Positions 33,378 to 46,382 of a stretch of 64,000 nucleotides of DNA are shown piece by piece. The notes beneath the pieces are model-generated. The model did not search any database. It saw only the letters and a program-made list of their open reading frames with translations, and had not been told where the DNA came from. The stretch covers positions 930,001 through 994,000 of the forward strand of contig JAOZHS010000001.1 in NCBI GenBank assembly GCA_026014745.1. The letters are read 5' to 3'. The translations under genes and the position numbers were made by a program. Each line of letters begins with the position of its first letter. Position 1 is the stretch's first letter. This stretch comes from Candidatus Bathyarchaeota archaeon. Its GTDB lineage: Archaea > Thermoproteota > Bathyarchaeia > Bathyarchaeales > Bathycorpusculaceae.

Positions 33378-33740
33378 CTACTTTTTGAACGCTAAACCCG
33401 TGAATAACGCGATTGTTTTGTCGTCTTTTTTAACGATGACTTGGTAGAGCCCTGTGGTTTTGCCGTCACTTACTCGGTTTGCCTCAGCCGTTAAGGTGTC
33501 GCCTTCAGCGGAGGGTTTTAGGTAGTTTATACTCACCTGCACTGCCACCGCCACGTTTTCGCCAAAGTTGCATGCCTGAGCAAACGCGTAATCCGCCAAC
33601 GAAAACACTACGCCGCCATGTGTGAACCCCAATGAGTTGGTATGGTTTTTTTCTACTTTCATCGAGACTTTAGCGTAGCCGTCTTGGGCGTCAAGGAGTT
33701 TTATGCCTAATGCCTCGGCGAAGTGGTCCACGTTTTTCAT
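33378..33740 (-). CDS. paaI: PaaI-type hotdog thioesterase
   Basis: 120 aa hotdog-fold acyl-CoA thioesterase. The signature HGGVVFSLADYAFAQACNF contains the family HGG and the acidic residue of the active site; VAVQVSINYLKPSAEGDTLTAEA completes the fold. PaaI hydrolyses hydroxyphenylacetyl-CoA and similar thioesters and prevents CoA from being trapped. It is the last gene of the liv/ior cluster and its start overlaps the livM stop by four bases. Its presence supports aryl-CoA intermediates in this pathway. Confidence 0.9.
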   Translation of the reverse strand: MKNVDHFAEALGIKLLDAQDGYAKVSMKVEKNHTNSLGFTHGGVVFSLADYAFAQACNFGENVAVAVQVSINYLKPSAEGDTLTAEANRVSDGKTTGLYQVIVKKDDKTIALFTGLAFKK

Positions 33741-34831
33741 TGGGTTTTTGCCTCTTTGGGTTGAGGTTTGGATTCAAGTTGGTTGTAGAGTTTTCGGAGC
33801 AGCGAAATTAAGCCTTTAGGCGCAAAAATCACGATGAGCAGTAAGATGACGCCGATGACTATCCAGCTTAGGGGTGGACCCACGTTGCTGACGTCTGGGA
33901 AGAATGGACCTAAGGCGCCGTTAACGTTATTGACTACGCCGGGTAACGCCAAGGTCTGCTGGATGGAAACCAGAAATATTGAGCCAAGGATGGGTCCAGC
34001 GACGGTTCCTAACCCGCCGATGACACTCATGATTAGTGGCAAAAACGAGTTGGCGGGCGAAAATACAGAGTTGTCGATGAGGCGTATGAAGTAGGCGTAT
34101 AATCCGCCTGCGATTCCCGCAAAAAATGTGCTGATGACAAAGGCTATGAGTTTGTATTTGGCGGTGTTTATGCCAATCATTTTTGCTTCGGCTTCGTTTC
34201 CGTGGATGGCTTTGAATGCTAATCCCACGCGTGATTGGGTTATTAGAAACATAACTGAGACGGAGGTTAATGCGAAGGCGACGACTAACACGTAGAAGGG
34301 AAAGCCTTTAGGAACCAAGGTGACGGTGCTAAAACCGTTTATACCCCGTGTGACTGCGTCGAACTGGCTGGATAATGTTGCCGCTATCACGGAGAAACCA
34401 AACGTCACCATAGCCAAATACCACGCCTTCAAGCGCACACAAGCTAACCCAATCAACAAGCCTACTCCTGCAGAAAGAAACCCGCCAAGCACCAACGACA
34501 AAATCAGGATTGTCACTGACAAGGCTCCTACTGGCATCTGTGTTGTGCCGAGCATGGAAAGAGATGCGGTTGAGACAGCGCTGCCGATGATGGCTGCTGC
34601 GAAGCCGCCGATGCCTAAAAAGAGGGCATGCCCAAGAGAGCCCTGCCCTGAACTGGCTAGGAAGTTCCAGCTTGATGCGTAAATTGCAAAGATGGTTATT
34701 AGGGTAAGGACGGTTAAGAAGAAGTTGTCTTGGATAAAGAGGGGCAGCAGAACAAGCACTGCGAAAAAGCCTAACATGTAGAGGAAGCTTCGGGACCGCA
34801 GAAACGTCATTAGCGTCTGTTTTAGTTTCAT
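33737..34831 (-). CDS. livM: Branched-chain amino acid ABC transporter permease LivM
   Basis: 364 aa inner-membrane permease with about 9-10 helices. GQGSLGHALFLGIGGFAAAIIGS and the conserved loop AFKAIHGNEAEAKMIGINTAKYKL (the EAA-like coupling helix) identify LivM. The start is set at the ATG 34831, two bases after the livH stop region and with SD GGGAG; the upstream open frame overlaps livH. It pairs with LivH, LivG and LivF to import hydrophobic amino acids or related acids. Confidence 0.93.
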   Translation of the reverse strand: MKLKQTLMTFLRSRSFLYMLGFFAVLVLLPLFIQDNFFLTVLTLITIFAIYASSWNFLASSGQGSLGHALFLGIGGFAAAIIGSAVSTASLSMLGTTQMPVGALSVTILILSLVLGGFLSAGVGLLIGLACVRLKAWYLAMVTFGFSVIAATLSSQFDAVTRGINGFSTVTLVPKGFPFYVLVVAFALTSVSVMFLITQSRVGLAFKAIHGNEAEAKMIGINTAKYKLIAFVISTFFAGIAGGLYAYFIRLIDNSVFSPANSFLPLIMSVIGGLGTVAGPILGSIFLVSIQQTLALPGVVNNVNGALGPFFPDVSNVGPPLSWIVIGVILLLIVIFAPKGLISLLRKLYNQLESKPQPKEAKTQ

Positions 34832-34832
34832 G

Positions 34833-35711
34833 TTATTCTCCCTTTTCCCCAAATATTCCATTTGGTCTAATTACCAAAACCACAATCAGCAATGCAAAGG
34901 CAACAGCGCTTCCCCAGATACCGCCGAAGAACAATGTGGCTAACTGTTCCGTGATGCCGTAGAGTAATCCGCCGACGATGGCGCCTTTGATGCTTCCTAA
35001 ACCGCCCATAATGATGATTGCAAACGCGATGATGGTGGGCATGGCGCCAACCTGATAGTCAAAGGAGAAGATGATTCCGTAAAGTCCGCCTGCGACGGCT
35101 GCGAGTGCAGCGCCGATGGCAAAGGTGAACATGTAGATTTTTTCTACGTTTATGCCCATGAGCATGGCGGTGGTGTTTCTTTGGCTGGTAGCTCGCATGG
35201 CTAAACCGATTTTTGTTTTCTGCATCAGCAACCCAAATGCTGCTAACGTAGCAATTACCACTACAACCGCAACTACGCGGTCGTAGGTTATGGATATGTT
35301 TGGTAAGTTGACGCTTAGTCCATAGAAGGGGCTGACAACCTGTTTGGAGTTGGCGCTCCATAGAAGCATGGCGACGTTTTCAAAAATGTAAATCAATCCT
35401 AAACTCACAAATATCTCGTTAAGTTTGTCAGTGCCTAAAACCCGTCGGAAAGTGAACCTTTCTACCCCAACCCCTAAAATAGCCACTGCCAGCATCGATA
35501 TCAAAATCGCCACATACGCGTTGACGCCTAAAGAAACAGAGATGGTCCACGTTAAGAACGCGCCAATCATAAGTAACTGTCCGTGGGCGAAATTAACAAG
35601 TTTCATGACGCCGAAAATTATGTTGAGTCCAGTCGCCAAAAGAATATAGACGCAGCCAATGGCGACACCCCACACTAACGTTAACAGTATTGTCGGTGCC
35701 GTGATGTCCAT
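34833..35711 (-). CDS. livH: Branched-chain amino acid ABC transporter permease LivH
   Basis: 292 aa with about eight helices. LATGLNIIFGVMKLVNFAHGQLLMIGAF near the N-terminus and RATSQRNTTAMLMGINVEKIYMFTFAIGAALAAVAGGLYG are LivH hallmarks. I set the start at ATG 35711 because a GAGGAG SD lies upstream within the longer open frame (which runs to a GTG at 35753). Part of the same cluster as the other Liv subunits. Confidence 0.93.
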   Translation of the reverse strand: MDITAPTILLTLVWGVAIGCVYILLATGLNIIFGVMKLVNFAHGQLLMIGAFLTWTISVSLGVNAYVAILISMLAVAILGVGVERFTFRRVLGTDKLNEIFVSLGLIYIFENVAMLLWSANSKQVVSPFYGLSVNLPNISITYDRVVAVVVVIATLAAFGLLMQKTKIGLAMRATSQRNTTAMLMGINVEKIYMFTFAIGAALAAVAGGLYGIIFSFDYQVGAMPTIIAFAIIIMGGLGSIKGAIVGGLLYGITEQLATLFFGGIWGSAVAFALLIVVLVIRPNGIFGEKGE

Positions 35712-35817
35712 TACTAGTTTTTTCTCCTCTCGTTTAAGCGGCGCAGTTGACACTAATTCACATGTTAACTATTTAAAATGTGCGAGAAATAAAAGAAAAG
35801 AGAGAGTGAATAACTCA

Positions 35818-37185
35818 CTACTGACCGGCTTGGTAACCGTCTGGCAGAACAAAGTCTGTCTGCTTGAGGTTACTTGCGCCTGATGGAGCCCAAACAATCT
35901 GCGATTTCAACTGGCTGGTAGATGAGTCATATTGAAGTTGCTCTATGAAGGTTATCGGGTCGATTTCGTGGTAGTTTACGCCTGTGCTGAATTGTATTTT
36001 GCCGGTGGTTGTTTGGATAAGCATCTGGGCCATGTCGGTGTTTTCTATGGCTGTCCGCACTGCAACTTTGTCAATTGTTCCTGCACGTTCGATGGCGTCT
36101 TTAGCGATGTAGAATGCGTCATAGGTGTCTGCACCCATCATACCCGGCATCACACCGTAGAGTTCGTTGAACTTTTCAGAGTAAGTTCCTACTATGGTGG
36201 AATACGAGGGTGACATGAAGGGGTCAAGTTTTGATTCCATCAGTTGTCCGTCGCCGACGCTTCCCAGAAGGTCATAGAATGCAGGGTCTTGGTTGTTTTC
36301 AACCACAATATAGACTGTCTTTAAGCCCACATCGTTCCATCCCTGTTTGATTATGAGGGGTGAGCGGTCGGGGTTGTCAACTACGAACACTGCATCAGGA
36401 TGCGTTGAAGCAACTGCGGTGAGGTCGGTTTGGAAGTTCTGAGTTGATGTGTCATAGCTTCGGTCTGATACCAGCGTTATTGGCAGGTTTTCTTGCTGTA
36501 TCCAATATTTGGTGGCTTCGGCAACACCCTTACCAAAGGCGTCATTTCGGTACAAAAGCGCTAAGCTGAAGTTACGGTCGGGGGCAACCATGGGCTTCAT
36601 TTCGTTAGCGAAAAAGTCCACAACGGTTTTGCTGTAGTGATAGGTGGTGGTGCAGTAGTGGAATATGTAACTCATACCTTCCTCATCGGTGACTCTGTCA
36701 GAGGAGTCTGCTGGGAGGCCGCCGTAGTTGCCTTGAGGTCCTCTGCGGGTAACCAACTGGTTGGATGCGCCGGTGATTATGTAGGGCACTTTGTTGTCGA
36801 TGGCTATTTTTTCGTTTGCTAATGTGCCTGCGCTGCCGTATCCGCCGATGAGCAAGTCTACTTGGTCGGTTTCAACTGCTCTGGTGACGGGCGTGACAGC
36901 GTTAGTTGGAGCGTCATTTTGTGTATCCGCGATTACTAAGGTAAAGTTGACTCTAGTGTTCCATTCTGAGACATAGACGCCGCCGGCATTGTTGATTTCA
37001 TCTATCGCCATGTTAGCTGCACGTTCCATGTCTTGTCCGATGGGGGAACCGGAAATGGGGGCAACTAAGCCGACTTTGATGTTTCTTGCTTCTGCCGAGG
37101 GAGCTTTCGGTACAAATTGCCAAGCTGCGAAGGCTGCAACGACTATTATAACTACTACTATCAGGGCTAAGATTTTCTTTTGCAA
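35818..37185 (-). CDS. livJ: Branched-chain amino acid-type ABC transporter substrate-binding protein LivJ
   Basis: 455 aa. N-terminal membrane anchor (ILALIVVVIIVVAAFAAW), then the two-lobed type I periplasmic-binding fold: IKVGLVAPISGSPIGQDMERAANMAIDEINNAGG, DLLIGGYGSAGTLANEKIAIDNKVPYI, and GMMGADTYDAFYIAKDAIERAG. The start is TTG at 37185, eight bases after AGAGGATG; the open frame reaches 37269 but that part overlaps iorB and lacks a signal. It captures the substrate outside the cell. The ligand could be leucine-type or aromatic amino acids, or aryl acids. Confidence 0.92.
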   Translation of the reverse strand: MQKKILALIVVVIIVVAAFAAWQFVPKAPSAEARNIKVGLVAPISGSPIGQDMERAANMAIDEINNAGGVYVSEWNTRVNFTLVIADTQNDAPTNAVTPVTRAVETDQVDLLIGGYGSAGTLANEKIAIDNKVPYIITGASNQLVTRRGPQGNYGGLPADSSDRVTDEEGMSYIFHYCTTTYHYSKTVVDFFANEMKPMVAPDRNFSLALLYRNDAFGKGVAEATKYWIQQENLPITLVSDRSYDTSTQNFQTDLTAVASTHPDAVFVVDNPDRSPLIIKQGWNDVGLKTVYIVVENNQDPAFYDLLGSVGDGQLMESKLDPFMSPSYSTIVGTYSEKFNELYGVMPGMMGADTYDAFYIAKDAIERAGTIDKVAVRTAIENTDMAQMLIQTTTGKIQFSTGVNYHEIDPITFIEQLQYDSSTSQLKSQIVWAPSGASNLKQTDFVLPDGYQAGQ

Positions 37186-37240
37186 TTTTTCATCCTCTTT
37201 CTTTGTGTCTTTGCTATATCCGCAAAAAATGTTTATAAAA

Positions 37241-37828
37241 TTAACTCTTAAGCACGCTTTGCCGGCCAAGCTGGAACGCTTTAAGGTTGAGGCTGATGTA
37301 TTTTTCCTTAAGTTTGCCTGCTATGGCTTGCTCAAACGATTTTACCTTCACTGGAATTTCTGGCAAAGCCGACAACGCCCCCAAAAGAACCGTGTTAACA
37401 ACCAACGTGTTGCCAAGAGATTTGGCGATGCCTATGCCGTCTACTTCATGAACCAGTGCCTTTTCATTTAGCAACGTTAGCAGTTCCTGTTTGCTTTTGG
37501 GTTTTACACCTCGGGGCAAACAGCTGGGCTGAATAAGCTTCTCGTTAACGATGACTGTGCCGCCGTTCTTTAGCATAGGCAGAGAACGGGTGGTCTCTAA
37601 GATTTCGAATCCCACAATTGCATCGGCTTTTCCTGTTTCAATCAGGGGTGACTCGACTTTTTCGCCAATTCGAGCAAACGCCACGATGGATCCTCCTCTT
37701 TGAGCCATACCGTGAATTTCAGCTTTAGCCACATCAAACCCCTCAAGCATAGCCGCTTCACAGTAGATATCACTCAACACTACAACCCCTTGACCTCCAA
37801 CTCCGCTAAAGACTAAATCTAGCTTCAC
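37241..37828 (-). CDS. iorB: Indolepyruvate:ferredoxin oxidoreductase, beta (gamma-domain) subunit
   Basis: 195 aa. FSGVGGQGVVVLSDIYCEAAMLEGFDVAKAEIHGMAQRGGSIVAFARIG is the conserved core of IorB, the subunit that forms the CoA-binding and pyruvate-oxidoreductase gamma-type domain. With IorA it oxidatively decarboxylates arylpyruvates (from Trp, Phe, Tyr) to aryl-acetyl-CoA with reduction of ferredoxin. Its ATG overlaps the iorA stop by four bases, so the two are translationally coupled. Standard length. Confidence 0.95.
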   Translation of the reverse strand: MKLDLVFSGVGGQGVVVLSDIYCEAAMLEGFDVAKAEIHGMAQRGGSIVAFARIGEKVESPLIETGKADAIVGFEILETTRSLPMLKNGGTVIVNEKLIQPSCLPRGVKPKSKQELLTLLNEKALVHEVDGIGIAKSLGNTLVVNTVLLGALSALPEIPVKVKSFEQAIAGKLKEKYISLNLKAFQLGRQSVLKS

Positions 37829-40017
37829 TGGTCTTTCCTCCCGATTGCGTCATATGGACACACAGCTTCGCATACTCCGCATCCCGCGCAAAGTGTGGTG
37901 TCAATTTCTGCTTTTCCATCCTTTTGTGAAATGGCTGGGCAACCGAAGGATTTTGTGCAGACTTCACAGCCGCTGCAATCCGTCTGGACTTCTCGTGGCT
38001 TACCCCGCTCGATTAGTAGGGGGCACGGACGCTTAGAAATCAGCACGGCTGGTCCTTGGTAATCGATGATTTCTCTTAGCGCTGCGGTTGTGGTTTTTAT
38101 GTCATAGGGGTCTACTGTGATGACTTTTTCTACGCCTACAGCGCGGGCGATGTCCTCTATGTTTATTATTTTTGTTTCTGTGCCAGTCACGGTTTTTCCT
38201 GAACCCGGTGTTGGTTGGTGCCCCGTCATAGCTACAACCGTGTTGTCGAGGACGACTACGCAGACGTTGGCTTTGTTGTAGACGATGTTTAGCAACCCTG
38301 GCATTCCTCCATGGAAGAAGGTTGAGTCGCCAATAACTGAGAAAACTTTGTCCCTCACGCCGGCGTGGACCATTCCTGCCGCCTGCGAGATTCCTGCGCC
38401 CATGCACAGGCAGCTTTGAACCGCGGTGACTGGAGGCAATACGCCTAGCGTGTAGCAGCCGATGTCGCCTGTAACGATTTTGTCATCTGATTTCGGCTTT
38501 AAGCTAAGTGCGCTCTCTGGGCAGGCTGGGATGCATTTGGGGTCGCCTCCGCATACATCGCAGATAAGCGGTTTATGAGTTGTGGGATGTAGTGTTAATG
38601 CGCCGTACTGGCATGCTTCTACGCACCAGTTGCAGCCTTTGCATTTGGCTTCGTCAACTTTGATTGTGCCCGTCTGCTTGGACTGTGAGAGGGCTTCTTC
38701 GGGGCAGGCGGCGACGCAGGGCGCGTTTTGGCATGATTTGCATGTTACTGCGGTATTGTTTATCAGGTTCACTCGTACCGTGCGTATCCTTGATTTGTGA
38801 GGGTTAAATGCGCCCTCTTTTTCAAAGGAGCAGGCGTATTCACAGATTTCGCAGCCTACGCATTTTTGGTCGTCGCATTGTATTGACTGGTTAACCATGT
38901 TTAGGGCATAGTAGAATGCTCTGTGTGGGCATCCTGGGCATAGCGCTGGGGGGCGAGGGGGTAAATCGATTTTTTGGGGCGTTTCGGGTTTATCGGTTAA
39001 TTCCAGTTTGGCGAAGGCTGCTCTGACTAAGTCAGGGGTTAACTCGCCTATCTCCTCTAAACCTAACTCTGCTTTGCCTATTACGTCGAGTTTTAGGCGC
39101 AGCAGGTTTTCTTCTATGTAGGGTCTGAGTTCTTCGATTACTATAAGTTTCTTGACTTTGGATGCGAACGTTTTGATGAGGTCCGCGGGGAAGGGGTGGA
39201 CGAAGCCCAGTTTGAGCCACGAGAACTTTTTGGTGTCTAAAACAGAGCGAGCATAATAGTAGCCGACTCCACTGCCCACGATGCCTATCTCGCAGTTATT
39301 CTCTTCCATTATGTTAAACTGAGAAGTCTCGGCAAGCTTTTTTGCCTCTACTAATTTGCCTTCCAGAACTCTGTGTTGGCGGATGGCATTCGATGGAACC
39401 ATGACCCATTTGGAGCCTTTCTTGTCAAAGTCAGCTTTTCTGCAGAGCTTTTGTATGTGACCCAGCTTCACGCGTGCTTTGCCGTGGGCAACTCGGGTTG
39501 TTAGTCGCAGGATGATGGGGAGGTGTAGTCGTTCGCTGATTTCGTAGGCTTCCCTGGCCATGTCCAGTGCTTCTTGTGGACTGCCAGCGTCAAGCAGTGG
39601 CAGTTTGGAGTGGATGGCGAAGTAGCGGGTGTCTTGTTCGTTTTGGCTGCTGTGTAAGGCGGGGTCGTCAGCGACTGCTATGACCATTCCGCCTTCGACG
39701 CCCGTGTACGCCAACGTCATCACGGCGTCTGCTGCCACGTTTAGTCCAACATGCTTCATGCTGCTAATGGTGCGTAAACCCGTCATCGAAGCACCAACCG
39801 CGACTTCAACGGCAACGATTTCGTTTATGCTCCATTCTGCGTAGATGTTAAAATCTTTAGAAACTTCAGCAATGGCTTCCAAAATTTCAGTGGAAGGCGT
39901 GCCTGGGTAAGCAGCGGCAACCTTCACGGATGCTTCTACTGCTCCACGTGCAACTGCCTCATCGCCGTTAAGCAAGGCGTAACTGCCAGGCTTATCAGCT
40001 GCAATCTTGGAAGTCAT
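37825..40017 (-). CDS. iorA: Indolepyruvate:ferredoxin oxidoreductase alpha subunit with inserted four-cluster ferredoxin
   Basis: 730 aa, about 100 longer than usual IorA. The pyrimidine-binding domain (about 12-180) begins LLNGDEAVARGAVEASVKVAAAYPGTPSTEI; a transketolase-C-like domain follows (about 240-345). The TPP domain starts with LCPGCPHRAFYYALN (360-373) but is then interrupted by about 135 residues with 16 cysteines (386-396, 426-438, 459-469, 486-499) in the pattern of a HybA/DmsB-type four-cluster ferredoxin; it resumes at TGDIGCYTLG (516-525) and GDSTFFHGGMPGLLN (563-577). The normal C-terminal two-cluster domain is also present (CSGCEVC, CAGCGVCEAVCP). The insert would give about six [4Fe-4S] clusters and may connect to another electron acceptor. 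ATG start with SD GGATG. Confidence 0.93.
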   Translation of the reverse strand: MTSKIAADKPGSYALLNGDEAVARGAVEASVKVAAAYPGTPSTEILEAIAEVSKDFNIYAEWSINEIVAVEVAVGASMTGLRTISSMKHVGLNVAADAVMTLAYTGVEGGMVIAVADDPALHSSQNEQDTRYFAIHSKLPLLDAGSPQEALDMAREAYEISERLHLPIILRLTTRVAHGKARVKLGHIQKLCRKADFDKKGSKWVMVPSNAIRQHRVLEGKLVEAKKLAETSQFNIMEENNCEIGIVGSGVGYYYARSVLDTKKFSWLKLGFVHPFPADLIKTFASKVKKLIVIEELRPYIEENLLRLKLDVIGKAELGLEEIGELTPDLVRAAFAKLELTDKPETPQKIDLPPRPPALCPGCPHRAFYYALNMVNQSIQCDDQKCVGCEICEYACSFEKEGAFNPHKSRIRTVRVNLINNTAVTCKSCQNAPCVAACPEEALSQSKQTGTIKVDEAKCKGCNWCVEACQYGALTLHPTTHKPLICDVCGGDPKCIPACPESALSLKPKSDDKIVTGDIGCYTLGVLPPVTAVQSCLCMGAGISQAAGMVHAGVRDKVFSVIGDSTFFHGGMPGLLNIVYNKANVCVVVLDNTVVAMTGHQPTPGSGKTVTGTETKIINIEDIARAVGVEKVITVDPYDIKTTTAALREIIDYQGPAVLISKRPCPLLIERGKPREVQTDCSGCEVCTKSFGCPAISQKDGKAEIDTTLCAGCGVCEAVCPYDAIGRKDQ

Positions 40018-40027
40018 CGTTCATCCT

Positions 40028-41344
40028 TTACATTTTACCCTTGCGTAAATCCAAAACCCTCTTAGCTTTGCCCTCGGTCCGCGGCAACTCGCCAGGGTTA
40101 ACGATTTCTACATCCGCACTTATTCCAGTAACTATGTGAATACGTTTTTGAATTTCGCCCTTGAGGTGGTTTTTATCAACTGCGGGGTCCTTTGAGGCTT
40201 TGTCGCATAATTCAACTTTAACTGCAAACGTGTCAAGTGCGCCTGGTCGGTCGACCACTATGAGGTATTGAGTGGCTAATTCACTAAAGCACATGACAGC
40301 GTACTCTATTTGTGAAGGGAAAACGTTGACGCCTCTAATGATGAGCATATCATCGCTTCTGCCACTGATGCGCTTCATGCGGGTGTGGGTTCTGCCACAT
40401 TTACATGTTTCAGTAAATAACTTGGATATGTCTCTGGTTCTGTAGCGCAGCATTGGCAAACCCTTCTTGGTGAGGGTCGTGAAGACTAATTCGCCTTCTT
40501 CACCATCAGGCAAAGACTCGCCAGTGTCGGGGTTGATAGTTTCTACAATGAAATGGTCTTCCCAAATATGCAGCCCCGCATGTTCTTCGCATTCGATGGA
40601 GACGCCTGGACCGCAAAGTTCGGTTAAACCGTAAATGTCAAACGCCTTGATGCTCATTTCATGCTCGATGCGCTCGCGGATTTTATCTGACCACGGTTCA
40701 GCGCCGAACATGCCCAGTCTGAGTTTAAGGTCTCTTTTTGGCACGACTCCTTCCTGTGCCATGGTTTCGGCAAGGTAAACAGCGAAGCTAGGCGTGCAGG
40801 AAAGGATGGTGGCGTCTAAATCTTTCATGAGTTTGATTTGCCTCTGAGTCATGCCGCCGCTTGCTGGTATAATTTTTGCACCCACTTTTTGGGCGCCGTA
40901 ATGGAATCCGAAGCCGCCTGTGAATAAGCCGTAGCCGTAGGAGATATGCATGGTGTCTTCGCGTCTGCCGCCGACTGTGTAGATGCAGCGTGCCATAAGT
41001 TCCTGCCATATTTCGAGGTCGCCTTTGGTGTAGGCGCCTACGATTGGGTTGCCTGTGGTTCCGCTGGATGCGTGGATTTCGACGATTTCATTTGATGGAA
41101 CCGTCACCATGCCGAATGGGTAGTTGTCACGTAAATCGCTTTTAACTGTGAAAGGAATTTTCTTGAGGTCGTCAAGAGTTTGGATGTTGCCTGGTTTTAA
41201 GCCGGCTTCATCGAATTTTTTGTGATAAAAACTGCTATGCTCGTAACAATGATGGACTTGTTCTTTGAGTTTTTTCAGTTGATGCTCTTTGATGTTTTGT
41301 CTGGGCATAGTTTCGATTTTTTCGTTCCAGTATTTGCCATCCAT
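40028..41344 (-). CDS. paaK: Phenylacetate-CoA ligase
   Basis: 438 aa, the standard PaaK length. Motifs: IHASSGTTGNPIVGAYTKGD (ATP/AMP P-loop), FDIYGLTELCGPGVSIECEEHAG, MLRYRTRDISKLF and RISGRSDDMLIIRGVNVFPSQIE. It makes aryl-acetyl-CoA from free aryl acetate, ATP and CoA. Within the liv/ior cluster it could either activate imported aryl acids or, with the ADP-forming synthetase, balance the CoA-ester pool. ATG start with GGGG upstream; iorA begins ten bases after its stop. Confidence 0.93.
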   Translation of the reverse strand: MDGKYWNEKIETMPRQNIKEHQLKKLKEQVHHCYEHSSFYHKKFDEAGLKPGNIQTLDDLKKIPFTVKSDLRDNYPFGMVTVPSNEIVEIHASSGTTGNPIVGAYTKGDLEIWQELMARCIYTVGGRREDTMHISYGYGLFTGGFGFHYGAQKVGAKIIPASGGMTQRQIKLMKDLDATILSCTPSFAVYLAETMAQEGVVPKRDLKLRLGMFGAEPWSDKIRERIEHEMSIKAFDIYGLTELCGPGVSIECEEHAGLHIWEDHFIVETINPDTGESLPDGEEGELVFTTLTKKGLPMLRYRTRDISKLFTETCKCGRTHTRMKRISGRSDDMLIIRGVNVFPSQIEYAVMCFSELATQYLIVVDRPGALDTFAVKVELCDKASKDPAVDKNHLKGEIQKRIHIVTGISADVEIVNPGELPRTEGKAKRVLDLRKGKM

Positions 41345-41366: not shown

Positions 41367-42071
41367 TTATAGGCCTAGATACACTTCTTTTATGTGACTA
41401 TTAGATAAAAGTTCCCTACTCTTTCCTTCCAATATTATCTTTCCTTCTTCAAGAACATAGCCGCGGGTTGCCACGTTTAAGCTGTCATGGATGTTCTGTT
41501 CCACCAAAAGCACCGTTACGCCTTCCTCGTTTATGGTGCGGACAGTGTCAAGGACTTTTTCAACGATAATCGGCGCCAACCCCAAAGAGGGTTCATCCAA
41601 AATTAGCAGTTGCGGATTAGACATTAAACTGCGGCATATAACCAGCATCTGTTGCTCACCGCCGCTGAGTGTCTGCGCCGCTGCTTTCTCTTTCTTTTTG
41701 AGCACGGGGAAGATTTCGAGAACTTTCTCTTTGGTTTCTTTAACTTTCACCTTGTCTTTGATGGCGTAAGCGCCTAGTAAGAGGTTTTCTTCCACGGTCA
41801 TGCGGGGAAAGATTTCTCTACCCTCGGGAATCATGGTGACGCCTTTTTTGACGATTTGATGCGTGGGTAAACCCGAGATGTTTTCTCCTTTGAATTTGAC
41901 TGTGCCCGTTTGGGGTTTTAAGAAGCCCATGATTGCTTTAACCAAAGTGGTTTTGCCGGCGCCGTTGGGTCCGATGATGCTGACTATTTCTTTTTCTTCT
42001 ACCTTAAAGTTGACGTCGCGCAGAATCTGAACCATGCCATAAGCTGCGGATAAATTCTCAATTTCCAACAT
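41367..42071 (-). CDS. livF: Branched-chain amino acid ABC transporter ATPase LivF
   Basis: 234 aa ATPase. Walker A IIGPNGAGKTTL, Q-loop region, signature LSGGEQQML, Walker B LLILDEPSLGLAP and the LivF-specific IPEGREIFPRMTVEENLLLGAY. It energises the LivHM permease with LivG. ATG start directly after the livG stop. Confidence 0.95.
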   Translation of the reverse strand: MLEIENLSAAYGMVQILRDVNFKVEEKEIVSIIGPNGAGKTTLVKAIMGFLKPQTGTVKFKGENISGLPTHQIVKKGVTMIPEGREIFPRMTVEENLLLGAYAIKDKVKVKETKEKVLEIFPVLKKKEKAAAQTLSGGEQQMLVICRSLMSNPQLLILDEPSLGLAPIIVEKVLDTVRTINEEGVTVLLVEQNIHDSLNVATRGYVLEEGKIILEGKSRELLSNSHIKEVYLGL

Positions 42072-42072
42072 T

Positions 42073-42813
42073 TTACTCGTCTTCTCCGAACAAAAACCGT
42101 TTTCCCAAGTAAACGTTCACTACATTCTCGTCTTTGCAGACTTGTTTGGGGGTGCCTTCGCAGATTTTTTCGCCATGATGCAGCACAATCACGCGAGTGC
42201 ATAAACCCATGATGACCCTCATGACGTGTTCTACCATAAGGACCGTGACGCCTTGCTTGTTGATTTGTTTGATCAGCGCGATTGCTTGGTCGCATTCCCT
42301 AGGCGTCAACCCCGTGAGCAACTCGTCTAGCAAAAGCAGCTTAGGGCTGGTTGCCAAAGCTTTAGCTAACTGAATGCGCCGCAATTCGACTACGTTTAGG
42401 TTTTTTGCAGTGACATCAAACTTTTCGCTTTCTAAACCCACAAACTCTAGTAGTTCCCTTGCTCGCAGCACGGCGTCTTTTTTGTCAACAGATTTCTTCT
42501 CATTAAAGAGTACACTGGTTAACACGTTTTGTTCAGCGGTCATTTCAGGAAAGGATTGGACTGTTTGAGCAGTTTTGGTGACGCCTTTGGCGCAGATTTT
42601 GAAGGGCGGCAATTTGGAGATTTCTTCGTTTAAGAAGAGGATTTGTCCCGAATCTGGTTTGTAGACGCCGCTTATGAGGTTTAGTAATGTGGATTTGCCT
42701 GACCCGTTGGGTCCAACTAACCCAGCGATTTCACCGCTGTTTATGGTTAAGTTTACGTTTTTTAGGGCTTGAAGTCCACCAAAGCGTTTAGAGACTTCGA
42801 CGCAATTGAGCAA
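42073..42813 (-). CDS. livG: Branched-chain amino acid ABC transporter ATPase LivG
   Basis: 246 aa. Walker A LVGPNGSGKSTLLNLISG and the LivG-type GVTKTAQTVQSFPEMTAEQNVL are clear. The signature loop is unusual (LNVVELRRIQLAKAL in place of LSYGQQRRLE) and Walker B reads LLLLDELLTGLTP, a known variant with Leu where Pro is common. First gene of the cluster. I set the start at TTG 42813, nine bases after GGAG, because a TATA-like box at 42854-42861 places transcription start inside the longer open frame (TTG 42840). Confidence 0.92.
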   Translation of the reverse strand: MLNCVEVSKRFGGLQALKNVNLTINSGEIAGLVGPNGSGKSTLLNLISGVYKPDSGQILFLNEEISKLPPFKICAKGVTKTAQTVQSFPEMTAEQNVLTSVLFNEKKSVDKKDAVLRARELLEFVGLESEKFDVTAKNLNVVELRRIQLAKALATSPKLLLLDELLTGLTPRECDQAIALIKQINKQGVTVLMVEHVMRVIMGLCTRVIVLHHGEKICEGTPKQVCKDENVVNVYLGKRFLFGEDE

Positions 42814-42853
42814 AGTTTCCGTCTCCCGAATAGCAAGCAATTATTCAAGTCCA

Positions 42854-43512: not shown

Positions 43513-43544
43513 GATTGCACGACGTAAAAGCAGAAGGTCACAGC

Positions 43545-46382
43545 ATGGTCACTACAAACCTTGACAAGATTTTCAATCCAAAAAGTGTAGCTATCATTGG
43601 AGCCAGTGACGTAGAAGGTTCAGTAGGTTACGCTATCGTCAAAAACTTCACTCAAAGCGGCTACACTGGAAAAATATATTTCGTCAACATAAAAAAGCCA
43701 GAGATACTAGGGGTAAAAACATACCCATCAGTCGATCAAATTCCCGATCCCGTGGATTTAGCATTGATTGCCACACCCGCCAAAACCGTCCCCACAGTTA
43801 TGGAGGAATGCGGCAAAGCCAACGTTAAAGGCGTCATCATTGTTTCAGCGGGTTTCAAAGAAATTGGTGCTGAAGGCAAAGCCCTCGAAGAGAAAGTTGG
43901 AGAAGTCGCCAAGAAATATGGCATCCGTGTCGTTGGACCTAACTGCATAGGTGTTCTGCGCCCCAGAATCAACCTCAACGCCACATTCCTTGACAAGATG
44001 CCCAAACCCGGCAACGTCGCGTTTCTCTCTCAAAGCGGCGCTTTGGGTTCAGCAATCCTTGACTGGGCAATTCATGAAAACATCGGGTTTAGTAACTTCG
44101 TTTCCGTTGGCTCCATGATTGATGTGGACTTCGGTGACCTTATCGACTATTTTGGCGGCGACCCAAAAACCAAAAGCATCCTCATGTATGTTGAAGGCAT
44201 AACTGAAGCTCGCAAATTCATGAGCGCCGCCCGCCACTTTGCACGAACTAAACCCATCATTGTTGTTAAAAGCGGCAAATTCTCAGAAAGCGCAAAAGCA
44301 GCAGCATCCCACACAGGTTCACTGTCAGGTTCAGACGACATCTACGACGCCGCGTTTAAACGCGCAGGTGTAGTACGTGTTAATGATATTGCTGACCTCT
44401 TTAACGCGGCTGAAGTTTTAGGCACCCAACCCCTGCCAAAAGGACCCCGACTCGCCATAATCACTAATGCAGGCGGACCCGGAGTCATGGCAACCGACGC
44501 CCTCATAGGCTTTGGTGGACAAATCGCTAAAATCAGCCAAAAATCCATCGATTCCCTCAACGCTGTGCTTCCACCGTTCTGGAGTCACGGCAACCCAATC
44601 GACGTTTTGGGTGACGCAAAAGCAGACCGCTACAAAGCAGCCCTAGACGCCGCCCTTAAAGACGACAACGTGGACGGAATCTTGGTTATTTTCACTCAGC
44701 AAGCTGTTTCTGAATCAGTGGAAATCGCCAAAAACATCGTGGAATTGGTACGCAGCCAAGCCTATCAGAACAAGACCATCGTTACATCATTTATGGGCTA
44801 TGGCGCCGTGCAGGAAGCCAACAACATCTTAAACGCCAACAACATCCCCACCTACAGCACACCTGAACAGGCTATCAAAACCTACATGTACATGTATGAT
44901 TACTCGCGAAACATTGACTTACTCTACCAAACCCCCGAAGAGCTACCCGTAGATGAGTCTCCGCCTAAACGCCCCATCATGGCAATCCTTCGTAACGCTG
45001 CGTTTGAAGACCGCGAAATCCTCACTGAGGACGAAGCTAAAAAAATCCTCAAATACTACAATTTCCCCGTCATCAAAACCGAAGTCGCCAACAACGTCGA
45101 CGAAGCAGTTGCATTCGCACAGAGCATGGGTTTCCCTGTTGTGCTAAAGATTCTCTCGCCCCAAATCATCCACAAATCTGATGCGGGAGGAGTAATCCTA
45201 AACATTAACACTCCAACAGAAGTCCGCGAAGCCTTCGAACTGCTCATCCAACGCGCCACCGCATACAACCCCAACGCCCAAATCATCGGCGTAACCGTAC
45301 AACCCATGGTTGAAAAGAAAGGTTACGAAATCATCCTCGGCGGCAAATCAGACCCCGTCTTTGGTCCCGTCGTCCTCTTTGGTATGGGCGGCGTCGGTGT
45401 AGAACTATTCAAAGACTACGCTATTGGTCTGCCCCCTCTAAACACCACTCTAATCCATCGCATGCTTGAAGAAACCAAAGTTTACCGCCTCCTCAAAGGC
45501 TACCGTGGCTCCGCACCCGTTGACCTAAAACGCCTCGACGAAACCATCTTGACTTTCTCGCGGTTGCTGGTTGATTTCCCGCAAATCAAAGAAATCGACA
45601 TCAACCCCATGCTTATCAGCGAAAAAGAAGCATGCATCCTTGACGCCCGCATAGTTGTGGACAAAGAAAAAATCTGCCGCAAATTTGAGCGCCACGAGCA
45701 CATGGTTGTTAGTCCGTATCCAAAAAAATACGAGATCCTGTGGCTCCTCAAAAACGGTCAGGAAACTTTGCTGAGACCTATTAAACCGGAAGATGAACCA
45801 ATGTGGCTAGAATGGTTCCAGAGCCTCTCTGAAGAATCCATCCGATACCGATTCTTCCAGATGTTAAAAGATACACCCCACGAAGTCCGTGTACGCTACT
45901 GCAACGTAGACTATGACCGAGAGGTCGCTTTAGTTGCGGAGATGGTTGAGAATGGCAAACGCAAAATCCTCGGTGTTAGCCGCCTCAGCATAGAATCCGA
46001 TGGTAAACACGGCGAAATGGCTTTCATTGTATCTGACTACTGGCAAGGCTTAGGTTTAGGAACTAAAATAGTTGACTATACACTTGACATTGCAAAAGAG
46101 AAAGGCGTCGAAAGCGTCTATGCCATTATGCTCCAAGACAACTACCGCGCATTGAGCCTCACCAAAAAGATGGGCTTTAACCTCGAATACTTAAGCGACG
46201 GAACCGTTAAAGGCATCTTAGACCTCAAAAACGAAGACGTAGACACCCGCTGCCTCCGACAACAAAAACAAGCCGAACCCGTCAAAGAAAAGAAATCTGT
46301 TCCGCAGCCCCCAGTTCAAGAGGCTCCTGTTTCCGCCGACAAACCTGTCGCGCATAAACAAGCCGAAAAAACCCCCGCCTAA
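43545..46382 (+). CDS. ADP-forming acyl-CoA synthetase (alpha-beta fusion) with C-terminal GNAT acetyltransferase
   Basis: 945 aa. CoA-binding and ligase domains (about 1-455) contain SVAIIGASDVEGSVGYA and the phospho-histidine loop AAASHTGSLSGSDDIYDAA (His near 256). An ATP-grasp beta part (about 480-710) contains IIHKSDAGGVILN (second His near 543). A GNAT domain follows (about 730-890: LRPIKPEDEPMWLEWF, HGEMAFIVSDYWQGLGLGTKIVDYTLDIA). A Pro/Lys/Glu tail ends it. The layout is that of the Pat protein acetyltransferase, but unlike Salmonella Pat both catalytic His are kept, so it can probably make ATP from acyl-CoA as well as acetylate proteins. ATG at 43545; the open frame starts at TTG 43515. 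Confidence 0.92.
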   Translation: MVTTNLDKIFNPKSVAIIGASDVEGSVGYAIVKNFTQSGYTGKIYFVNIKKPEILGVKTYPSVDQIPDPVDLALIATPAKTVPTVMEECGKANVKGVIIVSAGFKEIGAEGKALEEKVGEVAKKYGIRVVGPNCIGVLRPRINLNATFLDKMPKPGNVAFLSQSGALGSAILDWAIHENIGFSNFVSVGSMIDVDFGDLIDYFGGDPKTKSILMYVEGITEARKFMSAARHFARTKPIIVVKSGKFSESAKAAASHTGSLSGSDDIYDAAFKRAGVVRVNDIADLFNAAEVLGTQPLPKGPRLAIITNAGGPGVMATDALIGFGGQIAKISQKSIDSLNAVLPPFWSHGNPIDVLGDAKADRYKAALDAALKDDNVDGILVIFTQQAVSESVEIAKNIVELVRSQAYQNKTIVTSFMGYGAVQEANNILNANNIPTYSTPEQAIKTYMYMYDYSRNIDLLYQTPEELPVDESPPKRPIMAILRNAAFEDREILTEDEAKKILKYYNFPVIKTEVANNVDEAVAFAQSMGFPVVLKILSPQIIHKSDAGGVILNINTPTEVREAFELLIQRATAYNPNAQIIGVTVQPMVEKKGYEIILGGKSDPVFGPVVLFGMGGVGVELFKDYAIGLPPLNTTLIHRMLEETKVYRLLKGYRGSAPVDLKRLDETILTFSRLLVDFPQIKEIDINPMLISEKEACILDARIVVDKEKICRKFERHEHMVVSPYPKKYEILWLLKNGQETLLRPIKPEDEPMWLEWFQSLSEESIRYRFFQMLKDTPHEVRVRYCNVDYDREVALVAEMVENGKRKILGVSRLSIESDGKHGEMAFIVSDYWQGLGLGTKIVDYTLDIAKEKGVESVYAIMLQDNYRALSLTKKMGFNLEYLSDGTVKGILDLKNEDVDTRCLRQQKQAEPVKEKKSVPQPPVQEAPVSADKPVAHKQAEKTPA

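Follow-up and report, generated by a model that had tools for sequence, protein, structure and literature searches.

An archaeal IorA with a predicted four-cluster ferredoxin, apparently captured from a tungsten enzyme, inside its thiamine domain

The window analysed here is a stretch of 64,000 nucleotides from a Candidatus Bathyarchaeota archaeon (contig JAOZHS010000001.1, positions 930,001 to 994,000). It contains the genes for both subunits of an indolepyruvate-type oxidoreductase, IorAB, together with a CoA ligase, a Liv-type importer, a thioesterase and a divergent neighbour:

37825..40017 (-): iorA carrying the insert, 730-aa alpha subunit of indolepyruvate/arylpyruvate:ferredoxin oxidoreductase; TIGR03336
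37241..37828 (-): iorB, subunit beta; PF01558, E=2.5e-38; beside fused iorA in 30/30 loci examined
40028..41344 (-): paaK-type phenylacetate--CoA ligase, 10 bases upstream of iorA; TIGR02155 562.3 bits, below the cut-off of 646.3
41367..42840 (-): Liv-type ABC transporter ATPases LivF and LivG; domain/family matches, conserved context
33737..37269 (-): LivK, LivH and LivM, the binding protein and permeases of a Liv-type ABC transporter; domain/family matches, conserved context
33378..33740 (-): 4HBT (hot-dog) thioesterase, PF03061, the conserved final gene of the cluster
43515..46382 (+): ADP-forming acyl-CoA synthetase-like protein with a GNAT domain, divergent neighbour; PF13549/PF13607/PF13380, TIGR02717 over its cut-off

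Most loci of fused iorA genes, i.e., those encoding an IorA with the insert described below, have the gene order LivG-LivF-paaK-iorA-iorB-LivK-LivH-LivM-thioesterase. Directly upstream of iorA lies paaK in nearly all of the 30 fused loci examined, and the unit paaK-iorA-iorB is mostly kept even where the transporter is missing. Ordinary archaeal iorAB genes mostly occur without this operon context. The acyl-CoA synthetase-like gene stands beside several fused loci; its product in the window (43515-46382) combines CoA-binding, ligase and ATP-grasp parts with a GNAT acetyltransferase domain added at the C-terminus.

The assignment to IorA, made earlier in a sequence-only reading of this DNA, is borne out by a whole-protein score of 705.9 bits against TIGR03336 (cut-off 650.9), and a domain search finds POR_N, TPP_enzyme_C and Fer4. 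TIGR03336 aligns in two pieces that flank the insert, for which the model has no counterpart, and the adjacent iorB overlaps iorA by 4 bases. The usual C-terminal ferredoxin has been kept, as had also been claimed: eight cysteines (681, 684, 687, 693, 710, 713, 716, 720) are present, along with Fer4 matches. The relevant parts of the protein lie as follows:

38929..38940 (-): CPGC with C360 and C363, the first two predicted ligands to the TPP-proximal [4Fe-4S] cluster; profile alignment to CxGC of StOFOR beta (5b46_B/5b48_B)
38482..38886 (-): insert, aa 378-512, predicted WorS-type four-cluster double-ferredoxin domain; absent from ordinary IorAs, matches solved four-cluster subunits
38830..38862 (-): insert Cys group 1, C386, 389, 392, 396; invariant 41/41
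38704..38742 (-): insert Cys group 2, C426, 429, 434, 438; invariant 41/41
38611..38643 (-): insert Cys group 3, C459, 462, 465, 469; invariant 41/41
38521..38562 (-): insert Cys group 4, C486, 489, 495, 499; invariant 41/41
38455..38457 (-): C521 in GDIGC, predicted third ligand to the proximal cluster; pairs with GIGC in the StOFOR beta alignment
38023..38025 (-): C665 in RPCPLL, predicted fourth ligand to the proximal cluster; pairs with the StOFOR beta PC motif
37858..37977 (-): C-terminal 2x[4Fe-4S] ferredoxin, C681-C720; Fer4 matches, conserved Cys

Translation of 37825-40017 (-) gives, between CPGCPHR and GDIGCYTLG, sixteen cysteines in four groups at exactly the positions listed in the sequence-only reading. 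About 133 extra residues separate C360-P-G-C363-PHR from GDIGC521YTLG inside the TPP domain. The same two motifs lie some 20-35 residues apart in the ordinary IorAs compared, in agreement with the closeness that had been asserted for them, and the insert is absent from all of these proteins (28/28 archaeal and 17/17 bacterial). Its interpretation as a four-cluster ferredoxin is upheld by all 16 cysteines, which align with four-cluster subunits of solved structure, the Aromatoleum AOR subunit AorA among them. When the TPP domains of ordinary IorAs are aligned as a profile to the beta subunit of Sulfolobus OFOR (5b46_B, 5b48_B), C360, C363, C521 and C665 fall on the CxGC, GIGC and PC motifs; C665 is invariant in the fused and ordinary IorAs compared. 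Judged from this alignment, the insert falls between the predicted proximal-cluster ligands 2 and 3 in sequence order, and its insertion point corresponds to the helix-strand loop after CPGC, at about StOFOR beta residues 32-36. The 730-residue protein is most likely an oxidoreductase for arylpyruvates, and seven [4Fe-4S] clusters are predicted in it. AlphaFold2, run on a shallow alignment of 7 sequences, gave a pLDDT of 43.4 for the whole protein and of 37.0 for the insert alone, both too low for the models to be of use.

The full-length fused form is encoded, each time in one uninterrupted frame, by 41 of 257 genomes of the same class, the window's genome included; the other copies are 64-82% identical to the window's. 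These carriers span eight genera of two families: 28/32 genomes of the window's genus, among them Candidatus Bathycorpusculum termitum (L013, with the same gene coordinates as G107), and members of g3, g4, g17, g24, g31, g32 and g39. All 16 insert cysteines are invariant in the 41 intact proteins, and cysteine accounts for 17 of the insert's 28 invariant positions. The dN/dS of the insert (Nei-Gojobori, close pairs) is about 0.03-0.11, similar to that of the flanking core domains, which indicates purifying selection on the insert as on the core. Chance or a chimera is ruled out by the uninterrupted frame in 41 genomes, the invariant cysteines and the low dN/dS. That the domain is an artefact of misassembly or a decaying, non-functional insertion is hardly credible, even though one copy, otherwise seemingly intact, lacks 78 insert codons in frame (L012 = G087:C54): the genome G087 also has an intact copy (G087:C46), and the class survey, with selection and invariant cysteines across 41 genomes, refutes this reading.

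The deleted copy deserves a description of its own. It lies at L012:9060-9300, on contig PLTA01000047.1, which is evidently identical with G087:C54. The 78 codons are missing from mid-insert; group 4 is complete, and three cysteines of group 1 remain. Its core dN/dS is still low, and it lacks C536, a residue otherwise invariant in the fused form. The shortening may be genuine, may come from a contaminating contig, or may have arisen when the assembly collapsed similar Cys motifs onto each other.

To search for the same insertion among Bathyarchaeial and other archaeal homologues had been proposed as a check, and besides the class survey a sample of the phylum was searched for it: among 398 genomes drawn evenly across the phylum, the fused form is restricted to Bathyarchaeia, and the other IorAs among the matches listed break at the insert and have frames of ordinary length. 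In Bacillota, sampled as 398 genomes of the phylum centred on a Peptostreptococcaceae genome, IorA (E <= 1e-70) occurs in 243/398 genomes and none of the matches listed crosses the insert. Beyond these two phyla, the coverage consisted of a short-pattern scan of 84,980 species, which is sensitive to close relatives alone. Scans of viral contigs returned one nearly complete ordinary IorA and one fragment, with no match to the insert. One IMG/VR contig (L085:3150-5213) carries an IorA gene in which unrelated sequence replaces the ferredoxin domain, beside an apparent IS30-type transposase, and is probably host DNA or a disrupted gene. An IorA with a captured four-cluster ferredoxin is apparently undescribed, as had been supposed, since no description of this architecture was found in the open-access literature searched. 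Termite-gut Bathyarchaeia are reported to encode Ior, in passages that do not mention an insert (PMC7886697).

The best solved relatives of the insert, which it matches over its length, are 9mqx_E, 6x6u_B, 6x1o_B and 8c0z_C, mostly four-cluster subunits of tungsten enzymes. The earlier comparison with HybA, NrfC and DmsB had identified the right superfamily, but not the specific parent, which identity and tree place in Bathyarchaeial WorS; the corresponding family models stay under their cut-offs (DmsB 72.9 vs 214.1 bits, NrfC 53.9 vs 377.6). Identity to Bathyarchaeial AOR small subunits amounts to 47-62%. The window's genome itself encodes free-standing homologues of the insert at 57, 55, 50 and 47% identity, three of the four directly downstream of AOR large-subunit genes, and 23/25 free-standing Bathyarchaeial homologues examined adjoin such a gene. 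In a tree of 41 inserts and these 25 proteins, the inserts come together as a single group (bootstrap/SH-aLRT 89/78; present in 90% of the bootstrap trees, with the bootstrap not fully settled), and beside it are WorS sequences, including those of genus g39. Because the inserts group beside Bathyarchaeial WorS, with 23/25 of these adjoining AOR genes, we conclude that the insert is a captured WorS, the four-cluster small subunit of Bathyarchaeial tungsten aldehyde oxidoreductases. Judging from the same sequences, the insertion into IorA happened once, in an ancestor within Bathyarchaeia. C381 was considered as a mark of the fused form and rejected, as a Cys is also found there in 4/24 WorS (L098 and L103 among them); it was probably inherited from the WorS parent. 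An orphan WorS-like four-cluster ferredoxin of 212 aa, with a longer C-terminal tail and no adjoining AOR gene, is encoded at L066:7969-8607 (G000:C1 ~44 kb); the genes beside it look like those of a histone-deacetylase family protein and an arginyl-tRNA synthetase.

The WorS parentage also speaks for an alternative in which the insert acts as a docking adaptor for the AOR large subunit WorL and electronically couples arylpyruvate oxidation to arylacetaldehyde oxidation or aryl-acid reduction. The window's genome has three AORs, and OFORs can release aldehydes by non-oxidative decarboxylation, as reported for StOFOR1 (PMC5020499). However, two arginines of WorS, at 427 (24/24) and 440 (22/24), are variable in the inserts, which share many other non-Cys residues conserved in WorS; this suggests that a WorS-specific contact was lost and makes AOR docking less likely. 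Furthermore, none of the 30 fused loci examined showed an AOR gene next to iorA, and the window's operon has none. We regard AOR docking as quite improbable.

The core of the protein has a history of its own. With the insert columns removed, a tree with 28 archaeal IorAs separates the fused proteins from these as a single clade (100/100). After the addition of 17 Bacillota-type IorAs, a 100/98 split sets this clade and the bacterial sequences apart from 23 archaeal ones, in a tree that is unrooted and of limited sampling. The simplest reading of these trees would be a bacterial-type IorA core that later received an archaeal WorS. The codons for C536, C586 and T603 (window 38209-38412) specify residues that fused IorAs keep with little or no variation and that few or no ordinary IorAs have, C536 being also found in some bacterial IorAs; they may mark an altered substrate range or wiring. 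A second, divergent IorA type with CAGCPHR and a change of Cys 684 to Pro (L057, L058, L059) is encoded alongside the fused one by the genomes G073, G151 and G076, and one of its C-terminal clusters may be altered. No second IorA was found in the window's genome.

We propose, with a probability of roughly 0.6, that the fused protein is an IorAB alpha subunit in which the once-inserted WorS polyferredoxin forms a second electron-transfer arm of an arylpyruvate:ferredoxin oxidoreductase, most likely a catabolic one. The insert is read as such an arm because AorA holds four [4Fe-4S] clusters that conduct electrons; in the Aromatoleum AOR, electrons travel between the tungsten site and FAD, in the direction of FAD, over cofactors <15 Å apart (PMC10413684). 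As in AorA, the insert would be expected to bind four [4Fe-4S] clusters. It would then stand beside the proximal cluster and the C-terminal ferredoxin, giving seven clusters per alpha subunit, and would present a second docking surface at which an external carrier or partner receives the electrons of aryl-2-oxoacid oxidation. Somewhat more tentatively, the two output arms (C-terminal ferredoxin and WorS polyferredoxin) could turn the enzyme into a seven-cluster hub, in which the electrons of one thiamine site are split between, or pooled with, a second redox partner. Electron bifurcation inside the enzyme is unlikely, as no flavin domain appears in the iorA product among the domain and NCBIfam-type profile matches of the window's proteins. 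The earlier suggestion of a flavoprotein or membrane complex as second acceptor finds no backing either: no conserved neighbour of these kinds, or other redox partner, lies near fused iorA in the 30 loci examined, and IorA itself lacks a flavin domain. At L079:2390-7195, an apparent [NiFe] hydrogenase operon with NuoE/NuoF-like subunits diverges from the adjoining paaK-iorA; L050, with similar gene sizes and order, probably has the same operon, which is not conserved at other loci.

The position of the insertion bears on this proposal. In StOFOR, the Cys12-Cys15 loop is reported to ligate the proximal cluster, and four loops to surround it (PMC5020499); none of the four matches the insertion point. 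For this reason, the insert clusters may lack direct wiring to the proximal cluster. Between CPGC and the insertion point lies a helix of ~13 residues, estimated to span roughly 20 Å, so that the module would have to fold back for direct contact. This distance from the loops lining the cluster is in line with a mainly structural role, be it as an oligomerisation or oxygen-shielding domain whose clusters carry no essential current, or as a nanowire-forming module, and AorA subunits do build filaments in the Aromatoleum AOR (PMC10413684). Yet those filaments require AorA's own C-terminal helix (PMC10413684), and the insert passes straight into the IorA sequence without a free C-terminal tail. 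The nanowire variant was dropped, as nothing in the insert corresponds to AorA's polymerisation helix, and since the invariant positions are mostly Cys rather than surface residues, a structural role altogether appears improbable.

For the second-arm enzyme, the operon suggests a pathway: with PaaK, the thioesterase and the Liv-type importer, IorAB would most likely serve aromatic amino-acid catabolism, from arylpyruvate to arylacetyl-CoA, by a reaction that is reversible. Related Bathyarchaeia have been read independently as amino-acid oxidisers that use Ior (PMC7886697). The operon could also run in reverse: PaaK would activate imported aryl acids, and IorAB would turn them by reductive carboxylation into arylpyruvates from which amino acids are made, with the insert supplying low-potential electrons. 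Methanogens are known to have an aryl-acid route that uses IOR. PaaK belongs to the AMP-forming ligases, its gene is probably co-transcribed with iorA (10-base gap), and the Liv-type importer flanks paaK-iorA. Nevertheless, the window's genome has a prephenate dehydratase, so that phenylalanine needs no aryl-acid scavenging; and because PaaK also adjoins an ordinary archaeal iorA (L126), it is uninformative on the insert specifically. We consider the catabolic direction more likely, and the reverse one rather unlikely.

The fused protein resembles IorAB (TIGR03336) in its order of POR_N, domain II, TPP domain and C-terminal 2x[4Fe-4S] ferredoxin, in its proximal-cluster cysteines and in its IorB partner. 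It differs in the 133-residue four-cluster insert and in forming a separate clade with invariant residues of its own, e.g., C586 and T603. With WorS and AorA (PDB 8c0z, 6x1o/6x6u and probably 9mqx) the insert shares all 16 cysteines and their spacing, with up to 57-62% identity to Bathyarchaeial WorS. Unlike WorS it is embedded in IorA rather than being a separate subunit, has no AOR gene beside it and has lost Arg 427/440 and the free tail. A further likeness is to PadI of phenylglyoxylate dehydrogenase, an aryl-2-oxoacid oxidoreductase with the same type of four-cluster ferredoxin; its model NF045766 is the best NCBIfam match to the insert (82.7 bits against a cut-off of 700). In PadI the ferredoxin opens a separate 443-residue subunit and precedes an NAD-linked flavoprotein part, whereas in the fused IorA it lies within the TPP domain with no flavin or NAD part after it. 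Finally, the TPP site, the proximal cluster and the ferredoxin pocket or domain recur in the 2-oxoacid:ferredoxin oxidoreductases DaPFOR and MtOOR (with domain V) and StOFOR (without it), for none of which PMC5020499 describes a four-cluster domain inside domain VI.

Altogether, these comparisons point to a redox module that moved between unrelated metalloenzymes, from a tungsten enzyme into the catalytic domain of a thiamine enzyme, and that selection kept across an archaeal group. A plain IorA annotation, as given by TIGR03336, hides this insert. If the second arm works, it would change the view of how the electrons of aromatic amino-acid oxidation exit IorA.
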